Shown piece by piece: positions 17,372-54,118 of a stretch of 64,000 bases of DNA. The notes under the pieces are model-generated. The model ran no database searches. It saw only the letters and a program-made list of their open reading frames with translations, and was not told the origin of the DNA. The position numbers and the translations under genes were made by a program. This DNA comes from Lysobacteraceae bacterium (lineage in GTDB: Bacteria > Pseudomonadota > Gammaproteobacteria > Xanthomonadales > Rhodanobacteraceae), in the NCBI GenBank assembly GCA_028871555.1, contig JAGWNA010000001.1, positions 62,001 to 126,000 of the forward strand, read 5' to 3'. Every line of letters starts with the position of its first letter. Position 1 is the first letter of the stretch.

Positions 17372-18487
17372 CTAGCCTCCCTGCAGTTGCAGCATGAGCG
17401 CGTCCATGCAGAACTTCGCGGCCCAGTTCGGGTAGCGGTTTCTCATGTAGCCGCCTGACCGCGGGTACGAGCCCGGCATGCCGCCGCGCACCGCCTTGTC
17501 GGTCGCCGTCACATCCTGGATGGAAAGATTGAAGCGATTGGCGCGTTCCGCCGCTGGTTTCCAGCCACGCTCGCCGGTTTCCGCGGCCAGACGCTGCCAG
17601 ATGATCGCCATCTGCGCATTGCCGGTCACGCAGGTCCAGCGGCTCGCCGCTTGCCAGGCGCAATCCAGCCGGCCAGGCAGGGCGCCATCGCGACGCTGGG
17701 TTTGCGCAACGGCTCCCGCCACGCGCGCCGCCGCCTCCACAAAGGCGTCGTTGCCGGCGATCAGGCCGACTTCCAGCATGCCGCGGGTCGCGTACGCGAT
17801 GGTGTGTGTCAGCGGGCGTTCGTTGTCTTCCAGATCGTTGTTTTCCAGCCATCCGTTGGGGCGCATCTGGGAAAGTGCCCACTGCACATTGCGCACGGCC
17901 GCATCGAGATAGCGCGACTCCTGCAAGACCAGGCTGGCCCTGGCCAGCGCAAACGCCACGCGCGTGTTGTAGGTATTGATGCCGTGGGCGGCAAACGGTG
18001 AAGCGTAGCGACGCCATGCGCCATCAGGGTCCTGGGCGGCCACCAGCCAGTCCGCCGCGCGCTGCGCCGAGTCGCGAAAACGCGCGTCCTGCGTCTGCTG
18101 CCATGCCGACAGCCAGCCAAACAACACCTGCCCGGTATTGAAGATGGTCGGCACCAGCGAGCTCGAATCCAGCGTACCGGCACGCACGCCTCCTTCGGGA
18201 AGCTGGATGGCGGTTTCCCACTCGGCCATGCGCAGCGCGCGCTCCCGGTAGTCGTCTTGACCGGAGAACTGCGCGTAGCGCAGGAAGGTCGGAATGATGT
18301 ACCCGGTGGTTTCCGGATAGGCGCCGGCCCATTGCCGCTTCGCTGCATCGTAGTAGGCACTGACACCGCCGCAGCCGGTGGCGTCCTGGGCGCGCGCCAG
18401 CCATTCGGCGGCCGCCTGCAACCCATGGCGCGGATCCACTGCCGGGGGCGTCCGGCGGGCAGACAGCAGCCTGATGACCGCATTCAT
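17372..18487 (-). CDS. prenyltransferase/squalene-oxidase-like alpha/alpha toroid protein
   Basis: A 371-residue soluble protein built of repeated helical hairpins (GLQAAAEWLARAQD, RALRMAEWETAIQLPEGG, AADWLVAAQDPDGAW, AVRNVQWALSQMRPNGW). The QD.DGAW-type repeats are those of terpene-cyclase-like and glycosidase-like toroids. It has no signal peptide and no DXDD or DDXXD motif that would identify a true cyclase. The ATG overlaps the preceding stop (ATGA) and has GAGGAG upstream. It is coupled to the ATP-grasp gene and followed at once by the O-ligase. I cannot assign a reaction; action on a uronic-acid or polyprenyl-linked substrate is a guess. Confidence 0.65.
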   Translation of the reverse strand: MNAVIRLLSARRTPPAVDPRHGLQAAAEWLARAQDATGCGGVSAYYDAAKRQWAGAYPETTGYIIPTFLRYAQFSGQDDYRERALRMAEWETAIQLPEGGVRAGTLDSSSLVPTIFNTGQVLFGWLSAWQQTQDARFRDSAQRAADWLVAAQDPDGAWRRYASPFAAHGINTYNTRVAFALARASLVLQESRYLDAAVRNVQWALSQMRPNGWLENNDLEDNERPLTHTIAYATRGMLEVGLIAGNDAFVEAAARVAGAVAQTQRRDGALPGRLDCAWQAASRWTCVTGNAQMAIIWQRLAAETGERGWKPAAERANRFNLSIQDVTATDKAVRGGMPGSYPRSGGYMRNRYPNWAAKFCMDALMLQLQGG

Positions 18488-19686
18488 GACTTGCTCCTCG
18501 CCGCAATCGATCCCGGCAGCATCTTCGAAGTTCGGTCGTGCAGCGCACGTCGAACGCGCTGCAGGCCCTCGGCCAGGCACGGCATGGGGTCATGCCACCG
18601 GAACAAGGCATCGGCTACCGGGCCGCGTGGATAGCCCTGCGTGAGCCGCTGGCCTTGGGCGGTGGCCGATTGCATGTCCTCGGAGCGCACCCGCCACACG
18701 ACGGGCCGTCTTGCAGCGGCGGGCGGCGGAAGCGGCAGGCCCAGCTCCGAACGCCAGGCCGCAAACGGCAGATTGACGCCATTCAGGCTTGCCACTTCTT
18801 CCTGGTAGTCGGTGCGGCCGATCGTCGGCTCCACCATGCGGAACTCGCCGCTGCGCGCATCGCGCTTGTACTCCATGCTGGCCATGCCGATCACACCCGC
18901 GTCCTGGAAGAACCGGGTGGTCATGGCAGAAAGCTCCGCATGGACTTCCGCAGCCGCGGTGCAACTGGCGGTACCGCCCACCTGTGGCGGCCACGAGCGG
19001 ATCTTGCGGCCGGTGAACGACGCCACCACCTGCCCCTGGCCGGCGAGGTACTGCAGACAGAAATGGATGTCCGAATCCGGACCCTCGATCCACTCCTGCA
19101 CCACCACGTCGGCCATCACCGGCAGGATGCGGCGAACCAGCCCGGCAGCTTCCGCGGCACTCTCCACGCGGTACGCCTTCCTGAACTGCCCGCCATAATC
19201 GGCATTCCGTTCGCCGGGTTTGACCACCACCGGATAATGAAGGCGTTCGAGCGCGGCCAGATCCTCCAGCGTGCGGACGTGCAGCAGCGGCGGAATGGGA
19301 CTGCCGAGTTGTTCGGCGCGGCGCTGGAACCCCTCCTTGTGCAACAAGGTATCCACGACGTCTGCAGGCGGCAGACTGAATCGATAAAAGGCGGACAGCA
19401 GGTCACGGTGGCGCGAAACGGTCTTGACGCTTTCCTCCTGGGTCAGGAACAGCACCGGGCGCACACCTGAGAGCCGCGCCGTGCCCAGGCGCACCAGCTC
19501 CTCGACCAGCGTTTCACCGTGCGTCGCACGTATCTGCAACGGCTTTGCCGCACGGGTGTGCATTTCCGGACGCCGTACATCGGTATCCAGCAACCAGACC
19601 GGGACCCGTGCGCGCGCCAGGCTGCGCGCCACGCCCAGTCCATTGACTCCGGCGCCCAGCACCACGGCTGGCGTATCAGCGATCAT
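18484..19686 (-). CDS. ATP-grasp family ligase
   Basis: A 400-residue cytosolic ATP-grasp enzyme. The N-terminal Rossmann-like domain reads AVVLGAGVNGLGVARSLARA. The ATP-binding core includes YPVVVKPGERNADYGGQF, VVVQEWIEGPDSDIHF and a C-terminal GEFRMVEPTIGRTDYQEE for metal binding. Members of this broad family join carboxylates to amines through acyl-phosphates. The ATG at 19686 has GGAGG 5 bases upstream and overlaps the upstream glycosyltransferase by 11 bases. It probably attaches an amino acid or similar group to a sugar intermediate. This is inference; the substrate is unknown. Confidence 0.75.
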   Translation of the reverse strand: MIADTPAVVLGAGVNGLGVARSLARARVPVWLLDTDVRRPEMHTRAAKPLQIRATHGETLVEELVRLGTARLSGVRPVLFLTQEESVKTVSRHRDLLSAFYRFSLPPADVVDTLLHKEGFQRRAEQLGSPIPPLLHVRTLEDLAALERLHYPVVVKPGERNADYGGQFRKAYRVESAAEAAGLVRRILPVMADVVVQEWIEGPDSDIHFCLQYLAGQGQVVASFTGRKIRSWPPQVGGTASCTAAAEVHAELSAMTTRFFQDAGVIGMASMEYKRDARSGEFRMVEPTIGRTDYQEEVASLNGVNLPFAAWRSELGLPLPPPAAARRPVVWRVRSEDMQSATAQGQRLTQGYPRGPVADALFRWHDPMPCLAEGLQRVRRALHDRTSKMLPGSIAARSKS

Positions 19687-20977
19687 GCGCACCTCCGGCG
19701 CTGCGCCGGCGACGATCGAGTACGTCGGCATAGACGGCGCGGTAGCGCGCCACGCTCGCCGACCAGGTGCGTTCGCGCTCGACGAACTCCTGCCCATTGG
19801 CGATCACCCTGTCCCGACCCGCGTGCGTCTTCAGCAGGGTGGCCAGGCACTGCGCGATGGCCTCGGCCGACCCGGCGGGAAACAGATGACCATTGTGGCC
19901 ATCGCGAATCAGCTCGCGGTGGCCGCCGACATCCGAGGCCGCCACCAGTTTGCCCATGGCCATCGCCTCGAGCGGTTTCAGCGGTGTCACCAGCTCCGTC
20001 AACCGCCGCGAGATACGCGGATAGACCATGATGTCCATGACGCCGTAATAGCGGGTGACTTCGCCGTGCGGCACGCGACCGACGAAGTGCACCACGCGTT
20101 CGAGGCCGAGGCTGTTGGCCAGTGCACGCAAGGCATCCTCCTGCGGGCCGCCACCCAGCAACAGCAGGCGTGCCTGCGGCACCGCCTGCAGCACCAGCGG
20201 CATGGCCCGGAGCAGCAGGTCCAACCCCTCGTAGGCGTAGAACGAGCCGGCGAACCCCAGCGTGTACCCACGCGCGAGTCCGTACTCTTCCAGCAGCTTT
20301 GCATCGACGCTCGCCGTGGATCGAAAGCGTGCAATGTCCACGGCGTTGGGAATGACGGTGACCCTGTCGGCGGAAATGCCGCGCTCCAGCATGTCGCCGC
20401 GCAAGCCGTCGCAGATCGTGGTCACCGCGTCCGCCCGTTGCAGGGCCCGGGTTTCCAGCGCGCGCGTCAACCGATACCGCGCCCCTCCCTCTCTCGCCGT
20501 GCCGAGGTCGACGGCAGCGTCTTCCCAGAACGCGCGGACTTCGTACACCACCGGGATGCCGGTGGCGCGCCCCACCGCCAGCGCCGGTAGCGCGTCCAGC
20601 ACCGGCGAGTGCGCGTGGAGAATGTCCGGACGCACGCTGTCCACCACTTCGGCCAGTCGGGTCTGCAACGCGCGCATCAGGAAGCGATACCGGAGCAGCG
20701 GCAATCCTGCCAGCAAGCCGGACGCCGGCGGCGTGCGGTAGAACATCCAGTCACCGATGTGCTCCTCGCGCTGCTGGCTGCTGCCCTGCTTGGGGCCGGT
20801 CAGTTGCACCGTTTCCCACCCCAGCGCGCGCTGCGCCTCGAGGATGGCGAGCGTGCGGAAGGTATAGCCGCTATGCAGGGGCAGCGAATGATCGAGCACG
20901 TGCAGGATGCGCAGCGGCCGCTCGGCCGATGCCTCTGGCCGGGCTTGGCGCCGCGCAACGCTCAGGATGCCGCTCAT
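19676..20977 (-). CDS. exosortase A-associated glycosyltransferase (TIGR04063, Daro_2409 type)
   Basis: A 433-residue GT4 enzyme. The stretch RILHVLDHSLPLHSGYTFRT followed by QRALGWETVQLTGPKQ is the signature N-terminus of the glycosyltransferase family found only with exosortase A loci. The donor domain shows LGFAGSFYAYEGLDLLLRA, LLLLGGGPQEDAL and PLKPLEAMAMGKLVAASDVG. It is cytosolic. The start overlaps the stop of the preceding glycosyltransferase by four bases, and its own end overlaps the ATP-grasp gene, so translation is coupled. Confidence 0.9.
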   Translation of the reverse strand: MSGILSVARRQARPEASAERPLRILHVLDHSLPLHSGYTFRTLAILEAQRALGWETVQLTGPKQGSSQQREEHIGDWMFYRTPPASGLLAGLPLLRYRFLMRALQTRLAEVVDSVRPDILHAHSPVLDALPALAVGRATGIPVVYEVRAFWEDAAVDLGTAREGGARYRLTRALETRALQRADAVTTICDGLRGDMLERGISADRVTVIPNAVDIARFRSTASVDAKLLEEYGLARGYTLGFAGSFYAYEGLDLLLRAMPLVLQAVPQARLLLLGGGPQEDALRALANSLGLERVVHFVGRVPHGEVTRYYGVMDIMVYPRISRRLTELVTPLKPLEAMAMGKLVAASDVGGHRELIRDGHNGHLFPAGSAEAIAQCLATLLKTHAGRDRVIANGQEFVERERTWSASVARYRAVYADVLDRRRRSAGGAHDR

Positions 20978-37070: not shown

Positions 37071-38471
37071 TCAGCGCGCACCGCGTCCAAACAAAACCAC
37101 TTCCAAGGTCTGGATCAAGATGGCCAGATCAAACACCAGGTTGTGGTTTTTCACGTAGAAGAGGTCGAACTTCAGCTTTTCCTCGGCATCCTCCAGGGAG
37201 GAGCCGTAGGGATAGCGCAATTGAGCCCACCCGGTCAGCCCCGGCTTCAGGCAATGGCGCAACGAATAGAGGCGAATGCGGGTGTTGAAATCGGCCACGA
37301 ACTGCGGCCGCTCCGGCCGCGGGCCGATGATGCTCATGTCGCCGCGCAGTACGTTCCAGAGCTGCGGCAACTCATCCAACCGGGCCTTTCGAATGAAACG
37401 TCCGACCCGGGTCACCCGGCCGTCGTTCTTGGCGGCCCAGCGTGCCACACCGTTGCTCTCGGCGTCGGTGCCCATACTGCGGAACTTGATTACCCGGAAG
37501 AGCTTGCCGTTTTCGCCGACCCGTTCCTGGTAGTACAGGATCGGCGCGCCACGGCCCGACTCCAGCCGAATCGCCAAGGCCGTCAGCAGCATGAGCGGCC
37601 ATGCCAACAACAACAACAGCAAGGCGACGACGACATCGAAGGCGCGCTTGACCGTGCGCCTCATGGGGGAGACGTTGAAGCCATCCGAAAATACCAGCCA
37701 CGACGGGTTGGTTGGGTCCATCTTGATTTTGCCGGCTTCGCGCTCCAAAAACTCGGGGAGCTCGGTCACTGCTATGCCGCGCTGCTTGCATTCCAACAGC
37801 GCATCCACCGGCAAGGTACCGCGGCGGTCGTCCGGCCCTACTACAATTTCCTTCACGCCGGACTGGGTCGCCCATTCGCACAAGGCTTCTTCGGGATGCA
37901 GCAGCAGAGGCGCGGAGATGGACACCGGGTCGGTACCGACGGGCACGTAACCCATGATCTTGAACCCGCGTTGATCGCTCTTGCGGCGCATCATGCGGTT
38001 CAACTCAGCGGCACGCTCGCCGGCACCGAGCATCATCACGCGGCGCTTGAACAGTTCGGCGTCCACAAGACTCAGGAACAACACTCGCCATGACGCCACG
38101 ACGAGGTAACCGAGCAGCAACGCAATGCCCAGAACACCGCGCCCCAGATACGTGAGAGGAACCGCGTAATAAAGCACGGTAAGTGTTATGCCGCCCAGCA
38201 CGAAGGCTACGCCTTGCCGGCAGCACCGCCCCAGCCAACCCGCCCGCAGGTGAACCTGGTACAACCCGAGCGATGCCATTGAGGCAATCAGCACCATTGC
38301 CACCAGCGACGCACGCCAATGCAGCACTTGATCGAACGCGGTTTGGGTGCCGGCATCCCCCCAGAAACGCAGCCCCACCGCGGCATAAACACTCGCCATC
38401 AGCAGCAGGAACTCAACCAGCACCAGCAGCAACTGCCAGCGTTGTGCACTGTGTCGGAACAACCGGTACAT
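37071..38471 (-). CDS. epsB: EpsB-type polyprenyl-phosphate sugar phosphotransferase (TIGR03013)
   Basis: A 467-residue initiating sugar-1-phosphate transferase. Four N-terminal membrane helices (residues about 10-140) are followed by a nucleotide-binding-like domain (RVMMLGAGERAAELNRMM) and the C-terminal catalytic domain: KRAFDVVVALLLLLLAWPLM, YYQERVGENGKLFRVIKFRS, KARLDELPQLWNVLRGDMS and IGPRPERPQFV. It transfers the first sugar phosphate to undecaprenyl phosphate. The ATG at 38471 has AGGAGGT 6-7 bases upstream; a longer frame runs through the tRNA and is rejected. It is the first gene of the leftward operon. Confidence 0.94.
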   Translation of the reverse strand: MYRLFRHSAQRWQLLLVLVEFLLLMASVYAAVGLRFWGDAGTQTAFDQVLHWRASLVAMVLIASMASLGLYQVHLRAGWLGRCCRQGVAFVLGGITLTVLYYAVPLTYLGRGVLGIALLLGYLVVASWRVLFLSLVDAELFKRRVMMLGAGERAAELNRMMRRKSDQRGFKIMGYVPVGTDPVSISAPLLLHPEEALCEWATQSGVKEIVVGPDDRRGTLPVDALLECKQRGIAVTELPEFLEREAGKIKMDPTNPSWLVFSDGFNVSPMRRTVKRAFDVVVALLLLLLAWPLMLLTALAIRLESGRGAPILYYQERVGENGKLFRVIKFRSMGTDAESNGVARWAAKNDGRVTRVGRFIRKARLDELPQLWNVLRGDMSIIGPRPERPQFVADFNTRIRLYSLRHCLKPGLTGWAQLRYPYGSSLEDAEEKLKFDLFYVKNHNLVFDLAILIQTLEVVLFGRGAR

Positions 38472-38535
38472 GTTTGCACCTCCTGTACTGATGAATCCCT
38501 CCATCAGCCCCGGCCACAAACCGGGCGGCACATAT

Positions 38536-38541
38536 ATCATA
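38536..38541 (-). promoter_or_regulatory. candidate -10 element of the XrtA operon
   Basis: TATGAT read leftward lies in the only AT-rich patch of the 370-bp region before epsB. It gives a leader of about 58 bases. The corresponding -35 is poor, consistent with dependence on an activator, and the CRP-like site begins right beside it. Confidence 0.4.
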
Positions 38542-38563
38542 AAATGTGACGTAGTGCACATTT
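38542..38563. promoter_or_regulatory. CRP/Clp-type operator upstream of the XrtA operon
   Basis: The 22-bp site has half-sites AAATGTGA and GCACATTT around a 6-base spacer. Against the CRP consensus (AAATGTGA, 6 bases, TCACATTT) only one half-site base differs, and the 8-bp arms AAAATGTG/CACATTTT are perfectly symmetric. In Xanthomonas the CRP homologue Clp binds such sites and controls exopolysaccharide genes in response to c-di-GMP. The centre lies about 24 bp upstream of the start implied by the -10 candidate, closer than a classic activator position, so repression or a different promoter is possible. Confidence 0.65.
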
Positions 38564-38811
38564 TTGGATCGGTCGTGATGCTTGTGGAAGGCAGCTGCAT
38601 GAGGTGGCTGCTATCGGCAGGCACGCTGGCGGGATGGAAAACCCTTCCTTCACGCAAGGCTTGGGTCCGATGCCGCTGTGGGCGGTGACATCGTTCGACT
38701 TCCGTCAGGCGGAAGGGCGATCCTTTTTCAGGCGGACTGCAACACCAAGCGGCTGCCGTGCCCGGCACGCGGGGCAGCAGACCCAAGACTGGCGAGGATG
38801 CCCGGCAACGC

Positions 38812-38830
38812 AAACGCCCCACGCCGGGGC
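38812..38830 (-). terminator. candidate terminator of tRNA-Arg
   Basis: Read leftward, GCCCC-GGCGT-GGGGC forms a hairpin 12 bases beyond the tRNA 3' end, followed by a short TTT. It is weak, but the position fits. Confidence 0.4.
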
Positions 38831-38841
38831 CGGACTTTGAT

Positions 38842-38918
38842 TGGTGCGCCCGGCGGGATTCGAACCCACGACCCCTGCCTTCGGAGGGCAGTACTCTATC
38901 CAGCTGAGCTACGGGCGC
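38842..38918 (-). tRNA. tRNA-Arg (anticodon CCG)
   Basis: The leftward strand gives a complete cloverleaf. The 7-bp acceptor stem is GCGCCCG with CGGGCGC. The D-arm contains AGCTCAGCTGGATAGAG, and the anticodon stem CTGCC/GGCAG encloses loop CTCCGAA, giving anticodon CCG. The T-arm has GGTTCGAATCC, and an encoded CCA end lies at 38844-38842. It reads CGG arginine codons, which suits a GC-rich genome. No repeated 3' end suggesting integration next to it was seen nearby. Confidence 0.95.
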
Positions 38919-39070
38919 AATGATGGCCAACGCGGCGGCCGGCCATGCAGGCGGGTACCGCGGGGAGCGCAGTATAACCGAGTTGCCGGAGGTGGGCAGG
39001 CGGGACACGAGCCGCCCTCGGATCGATCATCGGCGACCGACGCCGCCTGCGCAGGGGGTGTGGCGCACAC

Positions 39071-39098
39071 GCCCCCTCTCCCGCGCGGGAGAGGGGGC
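39071..39098. repeat. perfect 28-bp palindrome, terminator-like
   Basis: GCCCCCTCTCCCGC is followed directly by its reverse complement, giving a loop-less 14-bp inverted repeat 18 bases beyond the stop of the M61 peptidase. No T-run follows in either direction. Its 5' flank (GGGGGTGTG) could instead pair with part of it. It may end transcription of the peptidase gene or belong to a dispersed intergenic palindrome family. Confidence 0.5.
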
Positions 39099-39115
39099 GG
39101 AACACCGGATCCCGC

Positions 39116-41014
39116 TCAGCGCGGCTTGAGCAAGGCAGCCAGCGTGTCGGGCCTGCTCTTGTCGCGCACCAGATGGGGATACTTGAGACCGCCGTGGTAA
39201 TCGATGCGCACGGTCTTGTACTCGTCGAAATTCTTCACCAGCAGCTCGATCGGCTGACTCTTGTTGCCGGCCGCGGCGGTGATGGCGTCCTTGAGATCGT
39301 CGGGGTCGTAGTCGTGGCCGTTGACCGCCACCACCGTCATGCCCGGCGCGATGCCGGCCGTGAACGCCGGCCCGTCCCACAGCACGTCGGCGATCTTGCC
39401 GCCCTTGCCGATCGACAGGCCGATCGAGAAGGCGAGATCGGCGAAGTGCCGGCGCGACTCGAACGCCTTCACCGCGTCGGAGGGCTTGTCGTTGTAGACC
39501 AGCGTCCAGCCGTGCGCCGCGATGCCGCCGATCAGCGGACCATGGCCGTCCAGACGGCTGCGCAGGTAGCTGGTCCAGTCGAACGGCTCGATCCGGTCGA
39601 GCGTCTTGACCACGTCGTCGAAGGTATAGGTATTGACGGTCCAGGCACCGTTGTCCATGCCGAAGAAGGCCTTGCCGAAATCGTCGATCGAGTGCCGGCC
39701 ATGACTGAGCTCGCGCAGCTTGCCATCGACGTCGAGCCAGATCATCTCGCCGGCGGAGTAGTAGTCCTCGCTGGACTGGTAGTTGCGGTACGGCAACGGT
39801 GCGCGCTGGGCGATGGTCGGATCGTTGGTGGTGTCCTGCACGTTGCGCCAGCTGGCCAGACCGGGACGGCCGCGGTCGTAGCTGGCAGCGACGAAGGCGA
39901 GCATGTCGCGGGTCTGCTGGTCGGTCCACAGGCCCGCGCGTGCCGCCATGATCTGGCCCCAGAACTGGGTCTGGCCCTCATACACCCACAGCAGGCTGTC
40001 GCCCATCGGCACGTTGAAATTGGGCGTGGTCAGATCCGCGCCGCGGCGGTACTTGCCGTCCCAGGAGTGGTTGAACTCGTGCGAGAACAGGTCGCGGTCG
40101 TAAATGCTCTTGCCGGCATCGGTGAAGTAGTCGGCAGAGGTACCGTCCTCGCTGGAACGGTGGTGTTCCAGGCCGATGCCGCCCAGCTTGTCGCTCAGCG
40201 TGACCAGGAAGTCGTAGCGGTTGTAGTGGTGCGCGCCATACATCCGGTACATCTGCTGCACCAGGTTGCGGTATGGCTTGATCTGCTCGGGCGTGAAGGC
40301 AAGATACTTCGGCGCATCGGCGAAGAAATCCATGTGCACCGGCGTGGCGGCGCCCGGATCCAGATCCACCCGCTTCGAATACTTGCCCGCGATCATCGGC
40401 GAATCGACCAGCACGTTGTAGGTGACCGGGTTGTAGCTCAGCGTGTCGCCGTTCTTCGAGGCTGGCCGGAGCGCACTGGCGGCCTGCCATCCGGCCGGCA
40501 AGGTCACCTGGGCAGCGGCGGTGATGCCGCGGATGTTGTAGCCGGCCGGGTACAGCGAGACCTTGTCCCACTGCAGGCTCAGCAGCTCGGGCGTCATCAT
40601 CACGCGGCCCTCACCATGATCCAGGGCGCTGAGGAACTGGAACTGGACGTCCACCGCCGTGGCACCCTGCGGTACATCGAGATGGAACGCGTAGACGTTG
40701 AAGGGGTCGCGTTTCCACGAAAGCACCTTGCCACCGGCCTTGACCACCAGCCCGGCAAGCTTGTCGATCGGACCGGTGGGCGAGTGGTTGCCGGGGATCC
40801 ACTGCGGATACAGCAAGGTCAGCGGACCGGGCCGCGCGGGTACCGTTTCGTGCACGCGAAAGATGCGATGCGCCACGTCGGTGGCATCCACGCTGATCTT
40901 CAAGGTGCCCTGGTAGGGCACATCCTGCGGCGGCGGGACATCGGCACGCACGACGGAACCGGCCAGGCCGAAGGTGGCGACAGCGAGGGCGGCAGCAAGG
41001 TGGATGGCTTTCAA
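39116..41014 (-). CDS. M61-family aminopeptidase with PDZ domain
   Basis: A 632-residue exported metallopeptidase. The signal peptide ends around residue 24 (SVVRADVP). The zinc site is HEFNH at 312-316, with a downstream Glu at about 346 in WVYEGQTQF, and GLEHH near 281-285 is another family motif. The N-terminal beta domain contains [15 protein letters not shown], typical of M61 glycyl aminopeptidases. A PDZ-like domain near the C-end reads [20 protein letters not shown]. The start is TTG at 41014 with GGAG 6 bases upstream. It is likely periplasmic, trimming small N-terminal residues from peptides. It is a single-gene unit. Confidence 0.88.
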
Positions 41015-41282
41015 TGCGATCTCCGGTGGACCCTGAAGTGGTTGTCCGTCCCTGACGGCCGCAACGCATGCGGCCTGCGCAACCGGCGGGAAGGCGAACG
41101 GACGCTGATGATCCCTGACGCGAAAACCGCCACGACTTCGGATCCAGAGCCTCGATGCTAGCCCGGCTGCGCCGCCACTGACCCATGCCGAAGGTCATGC
41201 CGCTGTGGTTCGTCCGGCGAAACCGGGCGATCATGGCACCGGTCTTGCTTGAAAACCCACCGAGCCATTTTTTTGACAGCCC

Positions 41283-42404
41283 ATGGACGTTTCCCGGAAC
41301 CGTATGTACGCGTTGTTCAAGGATCTTCCCGGCGCCGACGATTCCGTACAACGCCGGAAATTCACCATCTACCTGGCGCAGCGCATGGCCCCGGCGATCC
41401 ATGCGCTGATGCTGCTGTCCGTGTTTGCCTATCTGCTGGCGACCGCCGGACACGCCTTCGTCAGCGTCTCGCCGATTCCGTTGCTGCTGCGACTGGCGCC
41501 CGCGCTGCCGCTGTTCCTGCTTGCCGCGGCCTCCAGGCGCGTGAAACGGCCGTTGCCGCTCAGTCTGCTGGCGCTGTCATGCATGCTGCTGCTGGAAATC
41601 GGCATCAACCTCAACGGCATCGCCACGATGACAGGGCCGCGCCTGGTGATGCCGGGTCTGTTGCTGCCAGTGGCGACGTCGGTCATCTGGATCGAACGCT
41701 GGGACTTCCTCGCCGCCATGGCGTTGTGCGCTTTCGGCCCGCTGCCGCTGCTACTTGGCGCGGTCGATGGCGCCCCGGTTTTCCAGTACGCCATCTACAT
41801 GACGATCGCCCTTTCGGTGGCGGTCGTGCTGCGCGTCTTCATCCTGCGCACGCTGTTCGAACAATTCCGGCTGGAACAAATGCTGCGAACGCAGGCCAAC
41901 ACCGACAACCTGACCGGACTGCTGCTGCGCAACCGCTTTCTCGAACTGGCGCGGCTCGCGCTGGACGACTGCCTGGGCCAGCGCAAGCCGACCTGCCTGC
42001 TGTACCTGGACGCCGACCGCTTCAAGCAGATCAACGACGATCACGGCCATGCCGTCGGCGACGCGGTGCTCATCGCACTGGCTGCCTGTTTGCGCGCGCA
42101 GCTATGCGATACCGACCTGATCGGCCGCATGGGCGGCGAGGAATTCGCCGTGCTGCTGCCCGGCCTCGATCTGGCGCAGGCCACCCTCCGGGCCGAGCAG
42201 CTGCGGTTGTCCGCGCATGCCGTGCAGCGCCCGGACGGCCCGCTCGCCATCAGCATCGGGATCGCCGAATGCCGACCGGTCGACGATGGCATCGAGGCCT
42301 TGCTGGCGCGCGCCGACAAGGCCATGCGCCAAGCCAAGAAAGGCGGCCGCAACCGGGTGGTCGTCGACAATGCCACCGGCCAGGGAACAAGTACACAGGA
42401 CTGA
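41283..42404 (+). CDS. membrane diguanylate cyclase (GGDEF)
   Basis: A 373-residue protein with about six N-terminal membrane helices (residues 38-190) acting as a sensor of unknown type, then a GGDEF domain. The catalytic signature is GGEEF at 284-288, with DADRFKQINDDHGHAVGD before it and ISIGIAE after it, so it should make c-di-GMP from two GTP. The residues at the usual RxxD inhibitory site read CDTD, so product inhibition is probably lost. No clear ribosome site precedes the ATG. It is convergent with the permease gene. Confidence 0.88.
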   Translation: MDVSRNRMYALFKDLPGADDSVQRRKFTIYLAQRMAPAIHALMLLSVFAYLLATAGHAFVSVSPIPLLLRLAPALPLFLLAAASRRVKRPLPLSLLALSCMLLLEIGINLNGIATMTGPRLVMPGLLLPVATSVIWIERWDFLAAMALCAFGPLPLLLGAVDGAPVFQYAIYMTIALSVAVVLRVFILRTLFEQFRLEQMLRTQANTDNLTGLLLRNRFLELARLALDDCLGQRKPTCLLYLDADRFKQINDDHGHAVGDAVLIALAACLRAQLCDTDLIGRMGGEEFAVLLPGLDLAQATLRAEQLRLSAHAVQRPDGPLAISIGIAECRPVDDGIEALLARADKAMRQAKKGGRNRVVVDNATGQGTSTQD

Positions 42405-53213: not shown

Positions 53214-53509
53214 TACCGGTCGACCCGGCCGCCAGCCGCTACGCACCGGCAGCACCTGTCGCACTGCTCCGGGCAGGTCGCGCGGGTCCGGCAGCCGGCC
53301 GGGTAGGGTGGACGGGGCCTGCCCGCGTTTGACTGGTTGCAGGGTGGCATCCGTGCGGCGACTGGTTCCCGCCGGCGGGTGCCGCCCTGCCGGTTTCCGG
53401 CCGTGCCGGCCCGGTTCCCCTGCTTGGCGGCCAGGATGCAGCTCAAATTCTCCCGCACGGATGCGGGGGTTCCTTCCGGATCACCACCACTTGCGGTCAA
53501 TGCGATAAT
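53214..53509. other. 296-bp intergenic region before the sigma gene
   Basis: GC-rich and without coding character. A hairpin CCCGCA-cgga-TGCGGG lies at 53452-53467, followed by GGTTCCTT, and might end serC transcription. No Fur-box-like sequence or clear promoter hexamers are visible. Confidence 0.35.
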
Positions 53510-54118
53510 GTGAACACCATCACGCTGATCAACTCCTGGTGCCGCCGCATGGAACTGCAATCGGTCGAGCGCGGGCAATCTGTGCCCATGCTGGACGACC
53601 CGTCCAATTTCGATGCATTCGTTCGCGGCCAGCGCGAGGGGCTGGTGCGCTTCCTGCGTCGGCGTACCCCGCTGGAGGAAGATGCCCAGGATCTGGCGCA
53701 GGAAAGCCTGATCCGCCTGATGCGCTACCGGGGGCACGCACCCACGGCATGGGCTTCGCTGCTGTACCGCATCGCGATCAATGCCCTGAATGATCGCATG
53801 CGTCGAGCCCATACCCACCGTGAAGCGCAGCACGGCAGCCTGGACCTCGACTTTGCCGAACTGGCCTCGCCGGAACCGTCGCACGAGCAGCAGGTCGCCA
53901 CCCAGCAGGAGCTGGCCGTGCTGCAACGCGCGCTGCTCGGCTTGCCGCTGCGCTGCCGCCAGATCTATCTGTTGAACCGGATCGAGGGCATGAGCTACAT
54001 CGAGATCGCCGACCATTGCGGCATCAGTGTCAAAGCCGTGGAAAAGCACATCAGCAAGGCACTCAAGCTGCTGCGCGAACGCCTGGCGCCAGCCAGCCTG
54101 GAGTACGCCCAGCCATGA
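53510..54118 (+). CDS. ECF sigma factor, FecI-like
   Basis: A 202-residue extracytoplasmic-function sigma factor. Region 2 is FDAFVRGQREGLVRFLRRRT with EEDAQDLAQESLIRLMRY. Region 4 is LPLRCRQIYLLNRIEGMSYI with the helix-turn-helix SYIEIADHCGISVKAVEKHI. It ends in an ATGA overlap with a FecR-type gene, the classic iron-starvation-type pair in which the anti-sigma releases the factor when the surface receptor binds ligand. The start is uncertain: GTG at 53510, ATG at 53549 or ATG at 53588 all fit, and none has a good ribosome site. Confidence 0.9.
   Translation: MNTITLINSWCRRMELQSVERGQSVPMLDDPSNFDAFVRGQREGLVRFLRRRTPLEEDAQDLAQESLIRLMRYRGHAPTAWASLLYRIAINALNDRMRRAHTHREAQHGSLDLDFAELASPEPSHEQQVATQQELAVLQRALLGLPLRCRQIYLLNRIEGMSYIEIADHCGISVKAVEKHISKALKLLRERLAPASLEYAQP

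Follow-up and report, generated by a model that had tools for sequence, protein, structure and literature searches.

A palindrome 70 bp upstream of epsB, the first gene of an exopolysaccharide (EPS) locus of the XrtA/PEP-CTERM type, is the putative operator of Clp, which belongs to the CRP family and serves this bacterial family as a c-di-GMP receptor. The locus lies in the 64,000-nucleotide stretch of DNA analysed here (the window). Binding by Clp is considered very likely. We further consider it probable that Clp represses the operon and that c-di-GMP lifts this repression. At low c-di-GMP, Clp would sit over the epsB core promoter and keep RNA polymerase off, leaving the operon silent; a rise in c-di-GMP would release Clp and allow transcription. 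Repression as the sign of control is held as probable in its own right, and relief by c-di-GMP in the source organism with somewhat less confidence.

The palindrome and the exopolysaccharide locus

The features on which the argument draws are the following.

38542-38563, no strand assigned: putative Clp/CRP-type operator, palindrome AAATGTGACGTAGTGCACATTT, core 38545-38560 (sequence match and conservation in relatives)
38536-38541, minus strand: candidate -10 TATGAT of the first-pass annotation (5/6 match; operator centre at about -23.5 by arithmetic)
38531-38536, minus strand: candidate -10 TATATG, homologous in position to the TATAA that relatives have (alignment; operator centre at about -28.5)
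38488-38507, minus strand: leader hairpin CTGATGGA-GGGA-TTCATCAG with ANGGA in the loop, possible RsmA/CsrA site (suggestive)
38479-38484, minus strand: Shine-Dalgarno AGGAGG of epsB (sequence)
37071-38471, minus strand: epsB, first gene, XrtA/PEP-CTERM system glycosyltransferase (TIGR03013), 466 aa (profile match)
11082-37090, minus strand: 21 further same-strand XrtA exopolysaccharide ORFs (family matches, gap lengths)

The 16-base core TGTGACGTAGTGCACA at 38545-38560 has a single mismatch to TGTGA-N6-TCACA (9/10 core positions) and is bordered by AAA and TTT, that is, by AT flanks. At 0.68 AT, the segment 38532-38571 is the peak of the interval that runs from the start codon of epsB (38471) to a tRNA-Arg gene (38842-38918), the remaining 40-base segments scanned there having 0.23-0.53 AT, and the TATGAT candidate (minus strand, 38541-38536) directly adjoins the operator. 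The first-pass annotation had described a 22-bp site one base off the CRP half-site consensus, lying in an AT-rich patch before the first operon gene and touching a TATGAT -10 candidate, and each of these statements was borne out.

The locus is of the XrtA/PEP-CTERM EPS type, with EpsB, the export protein, the chain length factor and exosortase A above curated cut-offs (TIGR03013, 03027, 03007 and 03109, respectively); TIGR03018 falls below its own cut-off. The 21 further ORFs match an export protein, a chain length determinant, a tyrosine kinase relative, an outer membrane protein, an ATPase, a deacetylase, FemAB, glycosyltransferases, exosortase A, an amidotransferase, a sulfotransferase, a Wzy_C protein, a methyltransferase and a flippase. 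Among the first ten ORFs of the locus, the families are TIGR03013 (EpsB), 03027 (export), 03007 (chain length), 03018 (tyrosine kinase), 03016, 03015, 03006 (deacetylase), 03019 (FemAB), 03087 (glycosyltransferase) and XrtA. The remaining twelve, assigned by Pfam only, comprise about six glycosyltransferases, an Asn-synthase-type amidotransferase, a sulfotransferase, Wzy_C, a methyltransferase and a flippase-type protein; the ORF at 17372-18580 has weak glycosidase-like Pfam matches only, and that at 18484-19797 has no Pfam match.

With the longest ORF starts taken, the first 19 inter-ORF gaps are at most 18 bp and many ORFs overlap. We infer a single transcript, from which the last two ORFs may be excluded because their gaps are 113 and 399 bp. 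The earlier claim of one site before an operon of about 22 genes therefore stands as to the 22 same-strand ORFs from epsB to 11082 and is weakened for the last two, which may lie outside the transcript. The assembly that contains the locus comprises 3.36 Mb in 126 contigs and is 91% complete.

On its upstream side, the EPS locus is bordered by tRNA-Arg(CCG) (38842-38918, minus strand), on the same strand as epsB. This tRNA gene occurs in none of the epsB upstream stretches of 23 of the 24 other genomes closest by EpsB (L044 left out), and we rejected it as part of the unit. These relatives lack a counterpart to the border, and no more than 27 of the 45 genomes of the genus have an epsB above cut-off; together, the two observations hint at a mobile locus.

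Conservation upstream of epsB

Conservation upstream of epsB is the decisive test of the site, and motif counting is weak evidence. TIGR03013 scores above cut-off in 136 of the 233 family genomes, and 134 epsB upstream regions were used, G004 and G169 being excluded for matches that start at profile positions 51 and 63. We scanned the 350 bp before the profile match, a stretch that takes in the first codons and reaches about 290 bp upstream of the start codon; the upstream stretch of G010 is 398 bp only. Sites with at least 9/10 core positions were found in 27 of the 134 regions, compared with 0/134 for the reversed control and a mean of 1.09 (maximum 4) in 100 shuffles. At the threshold of at least 8/10, there were 44 regions, compared with 7 for the reversed control and a shuffle mean of 14.2 (maximum 23). 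Three of the 27 sites are doubtful, leaving 24 without them: that of G025 overlaps a perfect sigma-54 element, and those of G019 and G021 are distant from the others, some 230 bp upstream of the start.

The 134 genomes were ranked by how well a 39-residue stretch from the EpsB N-terminus aligned locally with that of the window. Among the 25 nearest, 23 carry a site of at least 8/10 and 16 a site of at least 9/10, with 3 at the former threshold in the reversed control; the exceptions are G168 (rank 3, no site) and G177 (7/10). The cut at 25 is our choice and coincides with no wide score gap, the scores around it being 105 (G193, site), 102 (G189, none), 92 (G019, none within the 260 bp scanned) and 89 (G020, none), followed by three g7 genomes with 8/10.

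Counted by genus within 260 bp, a site of at least 8/10 is present in all genomes of g2 (10/10), g20 (2/2), g19 (2/2, both perfect) and g18 (2/2), and all six g23 genomes carry one of at least 9/10. Partial genera are g7 (3/4), g1 (12/26), g4 (2/9), g25 (1/3) and g6 (2/19). No site of at least 8/10 was found within 260 bp in g17 (0/23), g5 (0/10), g8 (0/7), g12 (0/3), g24 (0/3), g10 (0/2) or in g15, g16 and g21 (0/1 each). The operator is thus a feature of certain lineages that other lineages lack.

Column conservation was computed from 18 genomes aligned without gaps on the box, ten of which belong to g2 and hence are not independent. The remaining seven of the 25 were left out, G168 for having no site and G143, G193, G149, G156, G181 and G191 for a different layout; for G145, the second box (9/10) was taken for conservation and genus counts instead of the aligned one (8/10). 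Positions T2, G3, C12 and C14 are invariant, and the other half-site columns range up to 0.79, the lowest score, 0.37, belonging to the second base on the left side, which is T in g2. Spacer columns range from 0.29 to 0.69 and the AAA flank reaches 0.89, and the upstream flank has a mean of 0.29 and a maximum of 0.41. The first-pass annotation had made the site depend on conservation upstream of orthologous epsB genes. This conservation holds among the closest EpsB relatives, whose half-sites are conserved and whose flank upstream of the box is not, and fails in g17, g5 and g8 and nearly so in g6.

Promoter geometry and sigma-54 elements

No sigma-70 promoter was reported by the prediction tool in 38000-39200. 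A looser sigma-70 scan of the window ranks TCCACA-17-AAAAAT first, which would place the operator centre at +1.5, and TATATG second. The promoter of the window itself is ambiguous, with the operator centre at +1.5, -23.5 or -28.5 depending on the candidate -10, and our sole reason for preferring TATATG to the top-ranked pair is its homology with the TATAA seen in relatives.

In 11 of the 25 close relatives (nine of the ten g2 genomes, G155 and G177), a TATAAN begins 6-9 bp past the box, and the operator centre falls at about -26.5 to -29.5 (by the scan for three, by the same arithmetic for the others). In G149, G156, G181 and G191, a TAAGAT, TAGAAT or TAAAAT stands directly before the box with the centre at +2.5; the -35 is poor, and in G156 the pair ranks second. 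Other promoter pairs rank first in G152, G167 and G186, and the place of G168 was set by hand in the looser scan. A CRP-type dimer should hinder polymerase when bound within the core promoter or across the start, and the centres at about -27 (TATAA relatives) and +2.5 are both predicted promoter-blocking places, as are the three candidate centres in the window. The earlier suggestion that the spacing hints at repression or an unmapped promoter is thus strengthened in its first part by the TATAA downstream of the box in relatives, and left ambiguous for the promoter of the window.

A different geometry is seen in g23. In five of the six genomes, the box lies at about -77.5 to -78.5 of TGGACA-17-TACTCT-like promoters, between the usual class I positions; in G194, G197 and G207, the second-ranked pair would place it at -25.5. 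Because of the box at about -77.5 to -78.5, we claim no sign of control in g23, where it may differ.

Sigma-54 elements were scored as GG-N10-GC with at least 13 of 16.5 to TGGCACG-N4-TTGCA. They occur in 30 of the 134 epsB upstream regions, compared with 7 in the reversed control and a mean of 3.98 (maximum 8) in 50 shuffles; a stricter scan gave 8 versus 2 reversed. In g2 (for example L178, L168 and L165), a sigma-54-like GGCACG-N4-ATGCA precedes the Clp box by a nearly constant distance. The element is found in eight of the ten g2 genomes, and the box centre lies at +21/+22 of the inferred start in six, at +18 in G009 and at +33 in G007, suggesting that the g2 epsB operon may have two promoters. 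Elsewhere, the element occurs at varying distances in g4 (5/9) and g5 (5/10), and in 5 of 26 genomes of g1, the window not included.

The operon might accordingly be controlled mainly by PrsK/PrsR and sigma-54 with Clp as a minor modifier, a reading that is compatible with Clp repression and that we consider unlikely. PrsR (TIGR02915, above cut-off) is encoded 1.3-2.6 kb left of the window start (C8:59393-60712), and the g2 genomes have their -24/-12 element before epsB. Against this, no -24 GG/-12 GC element over threshold is present upstream of the epsB of the window, for which we rejected a sigma-54 promoter. In Aquincola, moreover, the EPS genes appear independent of RpoN1 according to the available part of PMC9850573, so that the g2 elements, if real, would differ from that system.

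Alternatively, Clp may bind the site and activate the operon from an unrecognised class I or class II promoter, which we regard as improbable. Clp is reported to activate manA and engXCA in Xanthomonas and, going by a title cited in PMC8042644, to upregulate gum in Xcc; the upstream boxes of the five g23 genomes may also point to activation. However, inspection of the window by eye showed no -10-like sequence at the distance required for a class II (-41.5) or class I (-61.5) start, and the g2 box is misplaced for activation of both the sigma-54 promoter (+18 to +33) and the TATAA promoter (about -27).

The leader hairpin lies 16-36 nt before the epsB start, and a CsrA gene is present in the genome. 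Near the Shine-Dalgarno, an ANGGA hairpin is found in 5 of 25 leaders, compared with a mean of 0.12 (maximum 2) in 300 shuffles; the hairpin is kept in a subset of relatives and not in others. Minimum-free-energy folding of the 25 leaders gave no shared fold. Among six hairpin sequences picked for looking alike, so that the counts lean toward structure, two-sided changes occur in 2 of 8 pairs and were matched by 192 of 500 shuffles, which is not above shuffles. The hairpin is a possible RsmA/CsrA site, and the sequences are suggestive only.

A broader reading, which we find doubtful, takes the Clp box as the fixed element and the promoter around it as turning over. Its basis is that g2 has a sigma-54 element upstream plus TATAA, that the window has no sigma-54 element and that most g23 genomes have the box about 77 bp upstream of another promoter. 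Clp would then act as a portable c-di-GMP gate on XrtA exopolysaccharide operons that can block sigma-54 and sigma-70 polymerases alike, with the sign possibly reversed in g23, and RsmA would gate the messenger in addition. With the operator placed on the core promoter, downstream of a sigma-54 start, farther upstream or lacking altogether, the genomes offer a natural promoter series for the question of how Clp switches from repressor to activator.

Separately, a perfect sigma-54 element, TGGCACCGGTCTTGC (41234-41248, plus strand), stands about 35 bp before a GGDEF diguanylate cyclase gene (41283-42404). Relatives of this protein are found in 41 of 45 genus genomes, and a GG-N10-GC element scoring at least 13 lies within 250 bp upstream in 20 of the 20 best-matching loci (reversed control 0/20). 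A conserved sigma-54-dependent diguanylate cyclase near the EPS locus seems likely.

Clp and known Clp-controlled systems

The genome encodes four proteins with a cNMP-binding domain. One of them, L016, has as its best PDB match 3iwz, the Xanthomonas Clp (7.9e-83; 59% identity over the compared part), and is the only one of the four with the CRP-type recognition helix R-E-M-V-G-R. The other three carry E-T-V-S-R, which we take to be the FNR type; FNR-type proteins are expected to prefer TTGAT-N4-ATCAA, which the site does not match. Binding by one of these proteins instead of Clp is therefore very unlikely, Clp being the sole CRP-type helix found, with the proviso that at 91% completeness a paralogue may have been missed.

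Clp matches at E <= 1e-40 occur in 221 of the 233 family genomes (189 of the 192 good ones). We read the 31 loci with the best matches of these 221, from 30 genomes that exclude g2, g19, g20 and g23 (L016 and L246 are one gene). Aligned to Xanthomonas Clp, the c-di-GMP glutamate E99 is kept in 31 of 31, the window's genome included, as are R150, R154, D170 and R195; R166 is kept in 30, and D70 is E in all 31. The proposal of Clp as candidate regulator thus agrees with the one Clp that the genome carries. The available parts of PMC6637768 name D70 and E99 as key residues, with E99 elsewhere listed among promoter-binding residues, and PMC10333796 and PMC6637768 implicate E99, D70 and R166 in the c-di-GMP role of Clp, which c-di-GMP inhibits (PMC10333796). 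The substitution at D70, the ambiguous promoter of the window, the many epsB genera without a site and the absence of a site in G168 all speak against repression. The chosen cut at 25, the competing -10 pair, the three doubtful sites and the reading of E99 outside g2 qualify the case without overturning it.

A chance match without function in the source genome is highly improbable, since relatives carry the half-sites and the AT flank at the same place next to upstream sequence that is not conserved, even if the motif counts favour it: at two mismatches or fewer, the window has 8 matches against a shuffle mean of 19, fewer than chance, and the whole genome at one mismatch or fewer has 23 places against 10 with the reversed pattern, only about twice the control. 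A further one-mismatch match in the window, TGTGAACACCATCACG, lies at 53509-53524 (plus strand). Because of this second match and the window count below shuffles, the motif alone proves little, and we rejected motif counting alone as evidence.

Elsewhere in the genome, a perfect Clp-type palindrome, TGTGAGCTGCATCACA (L002, G000:C79:11220-11235), is located about 85 bp upstream of the gene for a FleQ-like sigma-54 activator, a parallel to Pseudomonas Vfr, which acts on fleQ. Three one-mismatch sites within a span of about 400 bp (L233, G000:C94:25308, 25331 and 25699) lie upstream of a multicopper oxidase gene.

The regulators homologous to Clp, E. coli CRP-cAMP and Pseudomonas Vfr, have the same operator consensus. 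For E. coli CRP and Vfr, cAMP promotes DNA binding, whereas c-di-GMP inhibits Clp, according to the available text of PMC10333796. The closest likeness in target is the xag operon of Xanthomonas campestris, which has a Clp half-site (TGTGA-N6) in an EPS promoter. As the accessible portion of PMC3528676 describes it, Clp binds the xagA promoter, binding is lost and expression rises when the TGTGA in TGTGA-N6-TCGAT is altered, xag expression is higher in a clp mutant, and c-di-GMP inhibits Clp binding. The remark in the first-pass annotation that Clp links c-di-GMP to EPS genes in Xanthomonas is confirmed by xag, in the form of repression relieved by c-di-GMP. The xag genes are other EPS genes than the XrtA-type locus of 22 ORFs, and the site here is nearer a full palindrome and is known from sequence.

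The gum (xanthan) operon likewise has Clp binding ahead of an EPS operon, but with two non-consensus sites and upregulation, unlike the site here (PMC8042644, as far as available), and in X. oryzae, Clp reportedly promotes both EPS and biofilm (PMC6637768, in part). The Aquincola XrtA/PEP-CTERM EPS loci share gene families with the present one (TIGR03013 and others), and PrsR is nearby here too. The published control of the XrtA/PEP-CTERM system, in the sources as available, concerns PrsK/PrsR and RpoN; in Aquincola, RpoN is shown to act on a PEP-CTERM gene, and a Clp site is not among the features described in the available part of PMC9850573. Judged by title, the open-licence literature searched yielded no report of Clp/c-di-GMP control of XrtA/PEP-CTERM exopolysaccharide. 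If true, our reading would connect this exopolysaccharide with c-di-GMP by way of an established receptor, and a single 22-bp site open to mutation would serve as the handle. We regard the finding as sound; it would carry a known kind of regulator-target pair over to another EPS system and is no categorical novelty.
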